Source: Acidimicrobiia bacterium
GTDB taxonomy: Bacteria; Acidobacteriota; Vicinamibacteria; Vicinamibacterales; UBA2999
Assembly (NCBI GenBank): GCA_016871275.1
Contig: VFZG01000009.1
Location: 1 to 64,000, forward strand
Length of the DNA stretch: 64,000 nt
Reading direction: 5' to 3'
How positions within the stretch are numbered: the stretch's first letter is position 1; every line of letters begins with the position of its first letter. A program made the translations under genes and the position numbers. The notes beneath the pieces were generated by a model, which saw only the letters and a program-made list of their open reading frames with translations, did not search any database and had not been told where the DNA came from. Below are positions 1,012-7,240 of the stretch, piece after piece.

Positions 1012-1098
1012 ATGATCAACGCCGCGAATCTCACCGAGACCTACGGCGACTTCACGGCGGTAAGGGACTCTTCGTTTTACGTCGCCGCCGGAGACTTA
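1012..1098 (+). pseudogene. N-terminal remnant of an ABC transporter ATP-binding protein
   Basis: Translation MINAANLTETYGDFTAVRDSSFYVAAGDL matches the usual ABC-ATPase start (xxLTKxYGxFTAVxxxSFxVxxGEx), but homology stops before Walker A and runs into vapC. Confidence 0.6.
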
Positions 1099-1521
1099 CC
1101 TCGGCCGGCGGCGCTTCCGGACCGTCCAGTTCTCGACCTTCAGGTCGCGCACGCGCTCGAACTCGGCCGTGTTGTTCGTCACCACCGTCAGGCCCAGCGA
1201 ACGGGCGTGCGCGGAGATGAACAGATCGTTGGCGCCCATCATCGCCCCGCGGCGCTTCAGGTCGGCACGGATCTCGGCATAGTGGAGCGCGGCATCCTCA
1301 TCGAGCGCCGGGGCGTCGACGTAGGGTAGAAAAGCCGCCAGCGCCGTGGCGTCTTGCGCGCGGCGGGGCGAGACCTCAACACCAAACAGCAACTCAGCCT
1401 TCGTGACGACCGACATGCACACGTCGTCCACCGGCACCGAGCGCAGCCGCTCGAGCACCAGCGGGTGCGACCGCTTCATGATGTAGGAGCAGATATCGGT
1501 GTCGAGCATGAAGCGCGCCAT
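1096..1521 (-). CDS. vapC: PIN-domain toxin, VapC family
   Basis: MARFMLDTDICSYIMK..., acidic PIN residues, '...MMGANDLFISAHARSLGLTVVTNNTAEFERV'; paired with VapB-like gene. Confidence 0.9.
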   Translation of the reverse strand: MARFMLDTDICSYIMKRSHPLVLERLRSVPVDDVCMSVVTKAELLFGVEVSPRRAQDATALAAFLPYVDAPALDEDAALHYAEIRADLKRRGAMMGANDLFISAHARSLGLTVVTNNTAEFERVRDLKVENWTVRKRRRPR

Positions 1522-1748
1522 TACGGTTCGCGCTCCTGAACGGGCAGATCCTCAACACCAGCCAGATAGCCCTCCGACGCCACCGGGGCCGAGTCCAGGT
1601 AGTCGCGCCAGTCGCGCGGCCGGGGCGACAGGATGACCTCGTCGCCGACCTTGCGGATCACGACCTCGTCGGTCGCGAACTGGAACTCCTTCGGCAGACG
1701 CACGGCCTGGCTGCGGTTGGTCATGAAGACCTTGGCGGAACGGGGCAT
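1521..1748 (-). CDS. vapB: VapB-type (AbrB/SpoVT-like) antitoxin
   Basis: 75 aa MPRSAKVFMTNRSQAVRLPKEFQFATDEVVIRKVGDEVILSPRP...; start trimmed from the longer ORF; stop overlaps vapC start. Confidence 0.88.
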   Translation of the reverse strand: MPRSAKVFMTNRSQAVRLPKEFQFATDEVVIRKVGDEVILSPRPRDWRDYLDSAPVASEGYLAGVEDLPVQEREP

Positions 1749-1770
1749 GGCTGAACCTCTGCCATTAGTA

Positions 1771-1795
1771 TGCCATATACGAAATGTATATGGCA
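1771..1795. promoter_or_regulatory. Perfect inverted repeat upstream of vapB, probable autoregulatory operator
   Basis: tgccatatac-gaaat-gtatatggca: 10-bp perfect arms, 5-nt spacer, 22 nt upstream of the vapB start. Confidence 0.7.
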
Positions 1796-1834
1796 CCCTG
1801 CGTTCGATCGGGACCCTCGGCCCGGACGGGTCCG

Positions 1835-2767
1835 CTACTTCAGCCCGCTCGGCCGCAACTGCTTCCAGCGCTCGATGAACGCGACCGCCGCGTTCACCGA
1901 GGCCTCGGTCTCGTCGCGCCCGCGCTCGGCGGTCGCCGCCTTGACGTCCAGGGCGCTCCACACACCCGTCTCGGTCATGTCTTTCGTCGAGGTCCCCTTC
2001 CCGGTCGACGCGGCCTTGAGCGCCTCGGCCAGGAACACTCGGGTAGCGGTGGGATCGCCGGCCACGACCTCCGGCAGGATCTTCTCGAGATGCGGGCGCA
2101 GCGTGAGCGGCGCCGTGCGGGCCACGCTCATGTTCACCAGGTTCGGCGTCAGGTAGAGCGACCGCGACGTCTCGCTCACGCCGCCGTGGCGATCGAACGC
2201 CGGGGGGCCCTGCCGGGGAGGCCGCTTCAGGAACGGCTGAGCTGCATCATCCAGTTCTACGGCAATGCCGGCGGTCTCCTGGTTGATGCGATCGACGATG
2301 TACTGCACGGTGGCGGAGTTGCCGGCGTGGCTGTTCAGGATCAGGAAACGCTTGAAACCGTGCGCCAGCAGGCTCTGCGCGGCCTGGAAGTACACGAGTT
2401 GAATCGTCTCAGACGGCAGGGTGATGGTGCCAGGGAAGGCCATGTGATACGGCGAGTTGCCGGGAAACAGAATCGGCGCCACCAGCACATCGGTCCGCTG
2501 CGCGATCAGCTTCGCGCGCTCCAATCCGCTCAGGAAGTCCGTGCCAATAGGACCCTGCAAGCCATGCTGCTCCAGTGACGCCACCGGCAGAATCACCATG
2601 TCGGTGCGCGTCAGCAGGTCCGCCACCTCCGGCGACGTCATGTGCGGCAGGTAGTTCTTGATCTTCTGCTCATGCCACAGCGGGTTGGCGGGCGCGGGCT
2701 GCGCCAACGCCGCCGACACCCACACCACACCCAGCACCAGCGCAACGGCGACGCGAACTCGCAACAT
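1835..2767 (-). CDS. Creatininase (creatinine amidohydrolase) family protein, secreted
   Basis: Signal peptide; 'MVILPVASLEQHGLQGPIGTDFL...LNSHAGN' typical creatininase motifs. Confidence 0.85.
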   Translation of the reverse strand: MLRVRVAVALVLGVVWVSAALAQPAPANPLWHEQKIKNYLPHMTSPEVADLLTRTDMVILPVASLEQHGLQGPIGTDFLSGLERAKLIAQRTDVLVAPILFPGNSPYHMAFPGTITLPSETIQLVYFQAAQSLLAHGFKRFLILNSHAGNSATVQYIVDRINQETAGIAVELDDAAQPFLKRPPRQGPPAFDRHGGVSETSRSLYLTPNLVNMSVARTAPLTLRPHLEKILPEVVAGDPTATRVFLAEALKAASTGKGTSTKDMTETGVWSALDVKAATAERGRDETEASVNAAVAFIERWKQLRPSGLK

Positions 2768-2807
2768 GCAGTCCTCCTCGAATGACGACGGACGGGTCGA
2801 CGCGCGT

Positions 2808-5366
2808 CTACTTGCTGCGCACGGCCGTCATGGTGATCTCCAGCCTCGCCCCGCGCGCCAGTTCCTTGACCGCCACGGTTGACCGCGTGGGATAGGCGCC
2901 GTCCGGAAAATACGATCGGTAGAGCTCGTTGAACCTGGCGAAGTCGGCCATGTCGGCCAGATAGACGGTGACCTTGACCACATCGCCCAGCGACATGCCG
3001 GCGTTCGCCAGCACCGTCTGCACGTTGCTCATGATCTGCTTCATCTCAGGCTCGAGGCCGCCGGGCACGAGCTGACCGGACACCGGATCGCCTCCCGTAC
3101 TGCCCGACAGATACAGCGTGTCGCCAACCAGGATGGCCGGCACGAGCGGCGACGGCGTGGGCTTGTAGTTGGGGGGTTGAATCACGCGCCGGGCGGGTGC
3201 CGGATTCCGGGCGGCCTGCGCCCCCGCGCCGCCGAAGTACAAGACATTGGGAGCCTCGGAGCGCGCCATCGCAATGTCGAGGCGGCCGTCCTTGTCGACA
3301 TCGCCAATGGCAAACCCGTACGCCGTCCCCCGGTCGTCGCCAAACAGCACCGGCGTGAAGTTCCGGCCGGAACCGTCGTTGAAGAACACCGCCGGCCGCG
3401 CTTCGACGAAGCCCACCACGATGTCGGTCGTGCCATTGCCATCGAGGTCGGCGGTGGCCAGCGCGTACGGCGACTTGTCGACAAGGCCGATTGGCACGGC
3501 CGCCGACAACCGGTTCCCTGCTTCGCCGTAGTAGATCGCCACGCCGGTTCGCTCGTCGATGGCCACGAGGTCCTGCCGGCCGTCGCCGTTCAGGTCGGCG
3601 GCGGCCGACATGCGAATGGTGGCGGTGGCGGGCCCGAACGGCACCTTCGCGGCGCCGGCGAACGTGCCCGTGCCGCCGTTGACATAAATGTGGCTCTGGC
3701 CGCCGTCGCGATGCGGGACGACGAGATCCACCAGTCCATCGCCGGTCACGTCAGCTGCGGTAATCGTGGTCGCCGACTCGGTAGCGAATTTCTCGCACGA
3801 CGCCTCGAACTGTCCGCGCCCCTTGTTGAAGCAGACGTAGCTGGCACCGGGCCGGTCGCCCGTGCGGTTGGCCACGACGATGTCGGGCAGGCCGTCGGCA
3901 TTCAGATCAGCAATGGTGGCGTTGCGTGTCGGCCAGTCGGCCTGGCCGAAGGTGGATCCGGGGCGGAACCGGCCCTTGCCGTCGTTCAAGTAGACGAGCT
4001 TGGGATCGCGATCGTTGCTGATCACCACGTCCAGGTCGCGGTCGCCATCAAGGTCGACCAGGTGACCCGAGTAGGTGCGATCCGACGCGGTCCCGAGATC
4101 GTAGGCCGACGAAAATCCGCCGCGGCCATCACCAAGCAACACGCGATCGACCAGCGGCCAATGCCGGCCCTTCGCCAGCACGATGTCGGGGTTGCCGTCC
4201 CCGTTCACGTCACCAATGCTGGCATTCGCCGAGGTCTCTGACGTGGGCTCCAGCAGCAGCGTCCGCTCGTAGTTCGGCAGAGTATCCGCGGCCGAGGCGT
4301 GGGTCTGCGTGCGATCGAAGTGGGCGACGATGTCGCGGGCGGCGCGGCCAATACGATCTTCGGCCTCGCCATATGAACCGGTGACGCCGTTCACGAAAAA
4401 CGAGATGAGGATGGTGCCCGAGCGGGCCGACACCAGCCCCACGTCGTTGGCAATCACCGCGCTGTCGCCGGTCTTATGCGCCACCGGCAGGTCGAGAAAG
4501 TGCGGCAGGCGGCGGCTGCCGGCCTGCTGCCGGCCCAGCATGGTCTTCATCTCGGCGGCGCTGGCCTGCGACGTCAGCGTGCCGCGCTCAATGGCCTCGA
4601 GCAGGCGGCCCGTTTCGCGAGGCGTCATGTCGCCCAGCCAGTAGGCCCGATCCTGCACGGTGAGCCGGTTGCGATTCGCCGTCATGGTGCGGCGGTTGGC
4701 GGGGTCGCGGACCATGTCCACCCACTTGGCTCGCGATCCCGTGAACAGATCCGTGTAGAGTGCGAACAGTTTGCTGTCCTGCGAGGCGTACTGCAGTCCG
4801 GTGGTCTCTTCCGGCGTCAGGTTGGCGAATGCGGGATCGATCAGCATCAGCAGCTGCTTGCGATACTCGTGGCTGCGGCCGAGCATCCGCGTCTTGGTGA
4901 ACCCCGACGCCGCGAGCCAGCTGTTCAAGGCGTCGACGCCGCCGATCTTGCGGACCATAAGGTCCGTGGCGGTGTTGTCGCTGGTGATCACCATCTCGGT
5001 GATCAGGTCGCGGTAGGTCGGATTCAACCCGAGGTCGTGAAACTGCAGCACCCCGCTGCCGTCGCGCAGATCCGCGCGCGTGATCGTCACGCGTTCGTTC
5101 AGGTTCAGCGTCTTCGCGTCGGCCATCTGAAAGGCGCGCGCCATGATGGCCAGCTTGATCACGCTGGCGCTGCTGAACGACTCGTCGCCGCGCACCGCGG
5201 CCTCCTCGCCGGTGCCAAGGTGCTTGACGTAGACGCCGGTCCGGGCCGGGAAGTCCGCCAGGTGCGAGGTAATCAGCGCGGTCAGACTAGCGGCTGGTGC
5301 CTGGGTCGACACGGCGGCGGCCAACGCCATGAACAGGATCGGAGCAAGCAGTCGCGTGCGCATCAT
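2808..5366 (-). CDS. Secreted multidomain protein: class A beta-lactamase-like domain + VCBS/FG-GAP repeats + RidA (YjgF/UK114) domain
   Basis: Start trimmed to MMRTRLLAPILFMALAAAV (signal peptide). SxxK (SVIK), SDN and KTG present; about seven D-x-[DN]-x-[DN]-G repeats (DVNGDGNPDIV, DLNGDGRQDLV, DLDGNGTTDIV...); C-terminus 'YPTRSTVAVKELARGARLEITMTAV' is RidA-like. One continuous ORF. Confidence 0.85.
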   Translation of the reverse strand: MMRTRLLAPILFMALAAAVSTQAPAASLTALITSHLADFPARTGVYVKHLGTGEEAAVRGDESFSSASVIKLAIMARAFQMADAKTLNLNERVTITRADLRDGSGVLQFHDLGLNPTYRDLITEMVITSDNTATDLMVRKIGGVDALNSWLAASGFTKTRMLGRSHEYRKQLLMLIDPAFANLTPEETTGLQYASQDSKLFALYTDLFTGSRAKWVDMVRDPANRRTMTANRNRLTVQDRAYWLGDMTPRETGRLLEAIERGTLTSQASAAEMKTMLGRQQAGSRRLPHFLDLPVAHKTGDSAVIANDVGLVSARSGTILISFFVNGVTGSYGEAEDRIGRAARDIVAHFDRTQTHASAADTLPNYERTLLLEPTSETSANASIGDVNGDGNPDIVLAKGRHWPLVDRVLLGDGRGGFSSAYDLGTASDRTYSGHLVDLDGDRDLDVVISNDRDPKLVYLNDGKGRFRPGSTFGQADWPTRNATIADLNADGLPDIVVANRTGDRPGASYVCFNKGRGQFEASCEKFATESATTITAADVTGDGLVDLVVPHRDGGQSHIYVNGGTGTFAGAAKVPFGPATATIRMSAAADLNGDGRQDLVAIDERTGVAIYYGEAGNRLSAAVPIGLVDKSPYALATADLDGNGTTDIVVGFVEARPAVFFNDGSGRNFTPVLFGDDRGTAYGFAIGDVDKDGRLDIAMARSEAPNVLYFGGAGAQAARNPAPARRVIQPPNYKPTPSPLVPAILVGDTLYLSGSTGGDPVSGQLVPGGLEPEMKQIMSNVQTVLANAGMSLGDVVKVTVYLADMADFARFNELYRSYFPDGAYPTRSTVAVKELARGARLEITMTAVRSK

Positions 5367-5412: not shown

Positions 5413-5997
5413 CTATCGCGGCTGATGAAAGTAGCCCTTGAGTCTTGGCGTCCTGGGTTTCCAGTCAGGCAGCTTCGCGTAGTCATCGCCGATCGGCATC
5501 TTCACCTTCGGCAGCGTCTTCTCGTCCATCACGTCGTCTTCGGCGATGACCTCGTTGATGAACAGCAAGTACGCCGTCAGCGCGTAGACCTCGTCGGGGG
5601 TCAACGTGCCTTCGCGATTCAGCGGCATGCCGCGATTGATGTAATCCCAGACGATGGTCGCGTGCGGCGCGCGCACCGGCAGGATGCGTCCACGTGACCA
5701 TGTCTCAGCGTCTTTCCCTCGGTTGGCTTTCAACGTCGGCGCCTTGCCGCTCGTGCCGTTCGGACCATGACATCCGGCGCAGCCCTTCGCGCGATAGACT
5801 TGCGCGCCTTCTCGGACGGTGCCCTTCCCTGGCGGCAGTTCCTCACCGCCCGGTCCGATCGCGATGTCCCAGGCGCGGATTTCTGCCGCGGTCGGCGTGC
5901 GTCCGACACCGTAGCCAGCGGACTGCGCCAGCGCGGTGGCGCCGGCGATCAACACCAGCGCCAGGGCCCTAAGCAAAGCCATTGGTGACACTGCCAT
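5413..5997 (-). CDS. c-type cytochrome, SoxD-like / sulfite dehydrogenase cytochrome subunit
   Basis: Signal peptide, CAGCH haem motif, C-terminal '...LTPDEVYALTAYLLFINEVIAEDDVMDEKTLPKVKMP'; overlaps the SoxC-like gene. Confidence 0.75.
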   Translation of the reverse strand: MAVSPMALLRALALVLIAGATALAQSAGYGVGRTPTAAEIRAWDIAIGPGGEELPPGKGTVREGAQVYRAKGCAGCHGPNGTSGKAPTLKANRGKDAETWSRGRILPVRAPHATIVWDYINRGMPLNREGTLTPDEVYALTAYLLFINEVIAEDDVMDEKTLPKVKMPIGDDYAKLPDWKPRTPRLKGYFHQPR

Positions 5998-7240
5998 CGC
6001 TGGCGATTCGCCACGGCTGAATGCTGTTGTCGAGACCCGGCACGCTGAACGTCTGATCGTACGGCCGGTTCCAGTACTTCGCAATCTGCTCGCGCGACGG
6101 CTGCACCTGGCCGATCTCGTCGGTGCAGCGCGACAGGATCTCCGTCGGCTGCCCGTCCCAATTCCACATGTAGCCGAATCGCGCGTGCGCCATGCGCTGC
6201 GGTGTGCTCTTGAACTCGGCCTTGTTCCAGCGCTTGCCGCCGTCGGTCGAGACTTCGACCAGTTTGATGGCGCCGCCGCCGGACCAGGCCAGGCCGCTGA
6301 TTTCGTAGAAGCCCTTGCCGGGCAACTGTTGCGAGCCTGATGGGAACGTGATGACGGACTTGGGCCCGATCTGGTAATCGAGCGCCGCGACTTTCGGATC
6401 GCGATCGAGATGCCCGTAGTCGTTGTAGTTCATGTAGTAGCGATCGACGACCTTGATGCGCCGCAGCCACTTGGTGTGAAAAATGCCTTCGAATCCGGGC
6501 ACCATCAGCCGCACCGGGAAACCCTGCTGCGGCCGCACGGCTTCGCCGTTCATCCCGTAGGCGACGATGCAATCGTCCATCGCTTTGGCGATCGGCATAC
6601 TGGATGCGCCCTTGATTTCCTCCGACCCTTCCGCCACGAACCAGGTCGCGCTGCCCTTCAGGCCGCATTCCCTGAGCAGCGTCGACAGCAGCACGCCAGT
6701 CCATTCGGCGCAACTCGTCATGCCGTGCGTGTCCTGCACGGTCTTCGCGCGGCGCGACGATCGATTGCCGGCGCATTCGATGAAATGTAATCGCGTCACC
6801 GACGGCAGGCGCTTCAAGTCGGCGACGGTGAACGTCAACGGACGATCCACCAGACCGTGAATCATGAGCTGGTGTTCCTGCGGATCGATGTCCGGCAGAA
6901 ACGAACCGCGCGTCGTCCCCATGTAATGCAGCGACGACGGAGTGATGACGCCGACCGAATCCTGAAGCGGCGCGGCGACATGGAACGTGAGTCCCCAGCT
7001 GTCCGGTGACGGCCTGCCGCCGTGCGCGATGCGGACCGAGGTGACGTGCTTCGATCGCTCGCCGTAGGCGATCTGATCGTGGCCTTCCTTGATCATGGCA
7101 GGCGCCGGATGTTGATCGTGCGATTGGCTGCCCGCCGGCGATTGGCCGAGAGCGGGCGTGGCCGCACCCAGGGTCAGGCCGCCGGCCAAGGCGGCGCCGC
7201 TTTTGAGGAATTCCCTGCGAGCAGGTTGCTTCGAGCCCAT
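5969..7240 (-). CDS. Molybdopterin-dependent sulfite oxidase-family protein, SoxC-like
   Basis: Tat-like signal RREFLKSGAALAGG; 'LHFIECAGNRSS', 'EWTGVLLSTLLRECGLK', 'GFPVRLMVPGFEGIFHTKWLRRIKV'. Confidence 0.82.
   Translation of the reverse strand: MGSKQPARREFLKSGAALAGGLTLGAATPALGQSPAGSQSHDQHPAPAMIKEGHDQIAYGERSKHVTSVRIAHGGRPSPDSWGLTFHVAAPLQDSVGVITPSSLHYMGTTRGSFLPDIDPQEHQLMIHGLVDRPLTFTVADLKRLPSVTRLHFIECAGNRSSRRAKTVQDTHGMTSCAEWTGVLLSTLLRECGLKGSATWFVAEGSEEIKGASSMPIAKAMDDCIVAYGMNGEAVRPQQGFPVRLMVPGFEGIFHTKWLRRIKVVDRYYMNYNDYGHLDRDPKVAALDYQIGPKSVITFPSGSQQLPGKGFYEISGLAWSGGGAIKLVEVSTDGGKRWNKAEFKSTPQRMAHARFGYMWNWDGQPTEILSRCTDEIGQVQPSREQIAKYWNRPYDQTFSVPGLDNSIQPWRIASDGSVTNGFA

Follow-up and report, generated by a model that had tools for sequence, protein, structure and literature searches.

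A single open reading frame in an acidobacterial genome encodes a protein, predicted from the shape of its leader to be exported, in which a signal peptide is followed by a class A beta-lactamase-fold domain, seven FG-GAP/VCBS repeats and a C-terminal RidA domain, and its gene is conserved beside one for an exported creatininase-family metal amidohydrolase. The reading that we favour, to which we assign a probability of roughly 0.45, is that the two adjacent genes form an exported module which brings together a serine acyl-hydrolase, a metal amidohydrolase and an imine deaminase. All of the parts come from known families, and what is new is therefore the way in which they are arranged, not the kind of machine; the fused, conserved hydrolase-RidA-creatininase pairing itself appears to be undescribed, and a search of the open literature, which excludes most subscription papers, turned up no account of a beta-lactamase fused to RidA. 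The creatininase partner, a shorter fusion that lacks the repeats, and a helical insert of about 60 residues are new relative to an earlier, preliminary description of this DNA.

The window, by which we mean the whole stretch of DNA that was analysed, comprises 64,000 nucleotides from an Acidimicrobiia bacterium (GCA_016871275.1, contig VFZG01000009.1, positions 1-64,000, forward strand; GTDB lineage Bacteria; Acidobacteriota; Vicinamibacteria; Vicinamibacterales; UBA2999). The stop codon of the fusion occupies positions 2808-2810 and the start of the secreted form lies at 5366 on the minus strand, while the frame stays open further upstream to an ATG at 5486, which would give 892 aa (Table 1).

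Table 1. Positions in the window of the fusion, its domains and motifs, and the partner gene.
Feature	Position	Strand	Basis
Full fusion ORF, 852 aa + stop	2808..5366	minus	single open frame
Signal peptide, aa 1 to about 24, MMRTRLLAPILFMALAAAVSTQAPA	5295..5366	minus	by eye; similar shape in homologues
Class A beta-lactamase/PBP-A-fold serine hydrolase domain, aa 27-353	4308..5288	minus	PF13354, AF2 + Foldseek
SVIK nucleophile motif, S68/K71, aa 68-71	5154..5165	minus	alignment
SDN motif, aa 129-131	4974..4982	minus	alignment
Helical insert of ~60 residues in place of the Omega loop, aa ~165-241	4644..4874	minus	alignment, AF2 model
KTG motif, aa 298-300	4467..4475	minus	alignment
Seven FG-GAP/VCBS repeats, presumed seven-bladed propeller, aa 371-712	3231..4256	minus	PF13517, Ca loops, all-beta model
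RidA domain, aa 727-852	2811..3188	minus	PF01042, AF2 of domain
R828, equivalent of RidA Arg105/Arg107, within PTRSTV	2883..2885	minus	alignment to UK114
Exported creatininase-family metal amidohydrolase	1835..2767	minus	PF02633 1.4e-50; partner in 10/10 genomes

The domains of the fusion protein

Three Pfam families match the fusion in order: Beta-lactamase2 (PF13354, 4.7e-48 over aa 44-320), FG-GAP_3 (PF13517, 3.1e-50, in six stretches) and Ribonuc_L-PSP/RidA (PF01042, 1.4e-29 over aa 740-849, 103 bits against a gathering threshold of 27.3), and these E-values rule out chance domain matches. The N-terminus has by eye the shape of a Sec signal peptide and contains no lipobox. The preliminary description had proposed one open frame with a signal peptide, the motifs SVIK, SDN and KTG, about seven repeats and a RidA domain containing PTRSTV, and the frame, the Pfam matches and the sequence bear this out.

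The SxxK, SDN and KTG motifs of class A enzymes are all present in the first domain and are nearly invariant among its aligned relatives; in an alignment with 45 beta-lactamase rows, S68 is found in 45/45 and K71 in 43/45. The AF2 model of aa 27-353, with pLDDT mostly above 90, is matched by Foldseek to LRA-5 (TMt 0.90), PBP-A (0.86) and 4EWF (0.85), and the sequence matches a PBP-A profile with an E-value of 4.7e-37; against the NCBI class A model NF033103 it scores 113.4 bits, below the cut-off of 200. The ExxLN motif with its general base Glu166, which the preliminary description had not been able to discern, was not found in the domain by alignment or profile and is absent throughout the family. 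Ambler position 166 is occupied by S165, both by gap-free counting from SDN and by profile alignment, and by Gly in the other fusions. The insert that replaces the Omega loop spans about 69 profile positions opposite 8 residues of LRA-5, and may harbour a substitute base, for which the sequence offers E167, E186 and E187 as candidates. The reading of E167 as a displaced Glu166 was rejected, because it falls opposite Ambler 168 in the profile alignment and is replaced by Val in relatives from Gemmatimonadetes.

Two characterised proteins provide precedents for such a domain. LRA-5, from a soil metagenome (PDB 8EO5), shares with it the fold, the three motifs and the lack of Glu166, but contains neither the insert nor extra domains and is 21% identical over the aligned structure; the wild-type enzyme, with Val166, has negligible turnover and confers no resistance phenotype (PMC12777564). 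PBP-A of Thermosynechococcus (PDB 2J9O) likewise combines a class A-like fold with the absence of the Omega-loop glutamate of class A beta-lactamases, but is a DD-peptidase (PMC11189452) with no insert, propeller or RidA. Since the first domain resembles both proteins in lacking Glu166, it is probably not an efficient beta-lactamase, which supports the earlier suggestion that it may not hydrolyse beta-lactams, and it is therefore not filed here as a class A beta-lactamase. A serine domain without a known deacylation base may indeed be weak or inactive. In one of the shorter fusions (genome G027, locus L061, 854-2185, minus strand), the hydrolase lacks 49 residues in frame, SVIK included, a gap that may be an assembly error or a true loss of the active serine.

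Under a strict pattern, six calcium-loop motifs are found in the repeat region, at aa 386, 438, 487, 539, 591 and 689, and a seventh loop, DLDGNGTTD, which departs from that pattern, can be recognized by eye between aa 591 and 689; the loops are about 50 aa apart, which gives seven repeats in all. The region is modelled by AF2 as all-beta at moderate confidence. The names “VCBS” and “FG-GAP_3” we take to denote one repeat type under Pfam naming. Seven repeats bearing calcium loops are shared with FG-GAP/VCBS propeller proteins, but here they sit between two enzyme domains and are missing from the shorter fusions. Their absence from four loci rules them out as an essential part of the module.

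The isolated RidA domain is modelled with a pLDDT of 73, which is moderate confidence, and Foldseek aligns this model to goat, human and bacterial RidA structures with TM scores of about 0.7-0.77; the fold and the key arginine expected from the preliminary description are both retained. Alignment to UK114 shows that the equivalents of Ser30, Asn88, Arg105 and Glu120 (the active-site positions given by PMC5979572, in TdcF numbering) are kept in the fusion and are invariant in the aligned module copies. The domain thus shares its fold and these residues with the RidA/UK114/TdcF subfamily, but differs from it in being exported, in being fused, and in having Leu in place of Tyr17 (L741 here); all 10 module RidAs carry Leu at this site, which is Tyr or Phe in those exported RidAs of the order that stand alone. 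In Salmonella RidA, replacement of Tyr17 or Glu120 by Ala has little effect, while replacement of the Arg almost abolishes activity (PMC4433059). The Arg by itself is no proof of deaminase activity, and the domain scores just under the TIGR00004 cut-off (102 bits against 106).

The preliminary description had regarded an exported RidA as unexpected in itself. This part of it does not stand, because about twenty stand-alone RidAs with signal peptides (L077-L096), about 45-50% identical to the module RidA and apparently an unstudied group, are spread through the order, which makes export less surprising. The window's own genome also encodes an exported protein of about 388 aa with three tandem RidA domains (L005 1117-2280, minus strand, G000:C41), which corresponds, in exported form, to the 3x-RidA proteins already known. 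Those tandem fusions (PMC4433059) are a precedent for a fused RidA, but they join RidA to RidA, whereas here a serine hydrolase is joined to RidA. A second RidA fusion in the same genome is a 521-aa frame (L008, G000:C92 ~1800-3400, minus strand) in which an aldo-keto reductase-like part, recognized by eye, precedes a C-terminal RidA matched by PF01042.

Distribution, gene neighbourhood and history

The distribution of the fusion was followed in related genomes and in a wider scan, using the hydrolase motifs, of one genome per GTDB species, in which the best 80 of 145 candidates were kept, so that more distant fusions could be missed. The complete fusion is present in three further genomes of the same family (G002, G005 and G007) at 82-84% identity, and its presence in related genomes was the check on an assembly artefact that the preliminary description had set in advance. 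In G008 the fusion is split across two contigs; in G010 a 785-residue frame contains the hydrolase and repeats, and RidA is encoded next to it in a distinct 174-residue frame that has a signal peptide of its own; and four genomes (G003, G006, G024 and G027) have a shorter hydrolase-RidA fusion without repeats. Among the best 80 candidates, the fusion was found only in Acidobacteria records (that of the G008 contig carries the acidobacterial label Sulfopaludibacter), and the other hydrolase relatives, from Gemmatimonadota, Steroidobacter, Sphingomonas and others, have no RidA or creatininase of this type nearby. Most relatives of the serine domain thus lack both partners, and it therefore also works alone. 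The module RidA occurs in 6 of 396 genomes drawn from the phylum, all of them in the window's own family. A plasmid collection yielded ordinary RidAs as its only matches, and the sole match in a defence library was an overlap with the RidA domain (PD-T4-2_B), with no system. When the window is compared with three relatives, dN/dS is 0.14-0.16 in the hydrolase, 0.09-0.11 in the repeats and 0.13-0.24 in RidA; all three domains are under purifying selection.

The creatininase gene is co-directional with the fusion and begins 40 bp downstream of its stop, and the gene order beta-lactamase-RidA-creatininase is found in 10/10 module genomes. Among 162 genomes of the order, those with a member of this creatininase clade (E<=1e-40) are exactly the 10 that contain a RidA of the module clade. 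Since the module genomes are related, this co-occurrence does not amount to a statistical test, but two genomes of the same genus (G001 and G004) lack both. In each of the four repeat-less loci the creatininase gene begins with a 4-bp overlap with the end of RidA, and in the other five loci measured a gap of 34-40 bp separates the two. The neighbour retains the ExH, D, H and HGG motifs that it shares with the creatininase family (PF02633; creatinine amidohydrolase, MftE), but has NSH(A/G)GN where creatininase has NGHYEN, and it scores 83.5 bits against the 235 of the creatininase equivalog while matching the superfamily PF02633.

Other neighbours vary. A CarboxypepD_reg outer-membrane barrel is encoded directly upstream on the same strand in three of the four repeat-less loci (G003, G006 and G024), a position that fits uptake, and is absent from the repeat-bearing loci. 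Just upstream of the barrel gene in G006 (L058 1503-3302, plus strand) lies a class V aminotransferase with a twin-arginine-type leader, which would be a PLP enzyme located beyond the cytoplasm and a potential source of imine; no such gene was found near the other module copies. In the window, a cytochrome c and a molybdopterin oxidoreductase, a sulfite dehydrogenase-like pair, lie directly upstream of the fusion (5416-7222, minus strand), and were rejected as module partners because they are not conserved at other loci; two small genes resembling a VapC-type PIN toxin and its antitoxin lie, by eye, just downstream of the creatininase (1096-1961, minus strand). No gene at the module locus names a pathway, and none is indicated by the neighbours of the stand-alone hydrolase relatives (kinase-TPR, Fic, DUF5916).

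RidAs from the two fusion types fall together in a single clade (98/98), but the corresponding hydrolase domains do not group, and a joint grouping of these domains is rejected (AU p 0.012) by a test of moderate strength that was prompted by an identity pattern noticed beforehand. This difference suggests that RidA was joined to this type of hydrolase more than once. Because G010, in which RidA is separate and has a signal peptide of its own, is the first to branch off among the repeat-bearing loci, the simplest reading of the sequences is that hydrolase, RidA and creatininase once formed an ancestral operon in which two fusions later took place; alternatively, the hydrolase part may have been replaced, or the protein may have been split in G010.

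Possible functions of the module

In the scheme that we favour, the serine domain would act outside the cytoplasm and be acylated by a nitrogen compound resembling an amide, peptide or lactam, a second amide bond would be cut by the creatininase-type enzyme, and the tethered RidA would hydrolyse an unstable imine or enamine product to a carbonyl compound and ammonia; we infer the order of the steps, the type of substrate and catalysis itself. RidA proteins are trimers, and the domain would therefore also trimerise the whole protein, while the propeller would serve as a spacer or binding surface that depends on calcium and that the module can do without, since the repeats are missing from four of the ten loci. 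Surface binding was also among the roles that the preliminary description had proposed. The probable role is the scavenging or detoxification of peptide-like nitrogen compounds, not beta-lactam resistance. The absence of SVIK in G027 counts against the serine-hydrolase scheme, as does the universal Leu at position 17 of the module RidAs, although Ala at that position is mild in Salmonella RidA. The fuller form of the scheme, in which the serine hydrolase and the creatininase-type amidohydrolase themselves make the imine or enamine that the tethered RidA clears, and in which tethering was invented at least twice, would be a pathway not described before, and is put forward tentatively, as a possibility of rather modest weight.

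The readings based on a DD-peptidase, a non-catalytic RidA and beta-lactam degradation overlap in part with this scheme and with one another. If the first domain were a PBP-A-like DD-peptidase acting on peptidoglycan, then the substrates of RidA and the creatininase would be peptide or D-amino-acid derivatives set free from the cell wall. The fold and profile matches to PBP-A, itself devoid of the Omega-loop glutamate, agree with this, but the fusion has no peptidoglycan-binding domain, no murein gene was seen adjoining the module, the insert is not found in PBP-A, and a general cell-wall role would not predict so patchy a distribution, all of which leaves this reading unlikely. It is similarly doubtful that RidA is non-catalytic and provides a trimerisation, chaperone or ligand-binding domain for the exported hydrolase, as the replacement of Tyr17, the trimeric state of RidAs and the other roles, such as chaperone, that have been proposed for some Rid proteins might suggest; the active-site Arg, Ser, Asn and Glu are conserved in the aligned copies, and the link between RidA and the creatininase holds in every case, including the one in which RidA is unfused (G010). 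Some beta-lactams give imine or enamine products on hydrolysis, and a class A fold with SxxK, SDN and KTG could open a lactam for RidA to remove the product, a role in handling a reactive imine that the preliminary description had raised, but the absence of Glu166 throughout the family, the low score against the class A model and the negligible activity of LRA-5 (PMC12777564) make beta-lactam degradation quite improbable. An artefact of assembly or gene calling, which might be suspected because all of the named module genomes are metagenome assemblies, can safely be dismissed, since the fusion recurs with the same junctions in independent assemblies at 82-84% identity and purifying selection extends across all of its domains.

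Implications for RidA and class A-fold proteins

To our knowledge, RidA is known almost only as an intracellular guard against enamines from PLP enzymes. The fusion and its exported creatininase point to uncharacterised chemistry outside the cytoplasm: a RidA joined to exported hydrolases that cleave amides, and strictly inherited together with them, would place imine chemistry in the periplasm, and the linkage would offer a concrete route to the source of the periplasmic imine. The serine domain, for its part, adds to the class A folds a natural group in which Glu166 is missing and the Omega loop has been rebuilt, which is relevant to the kinship of beta-lactamases with other acyl-hydrolases.
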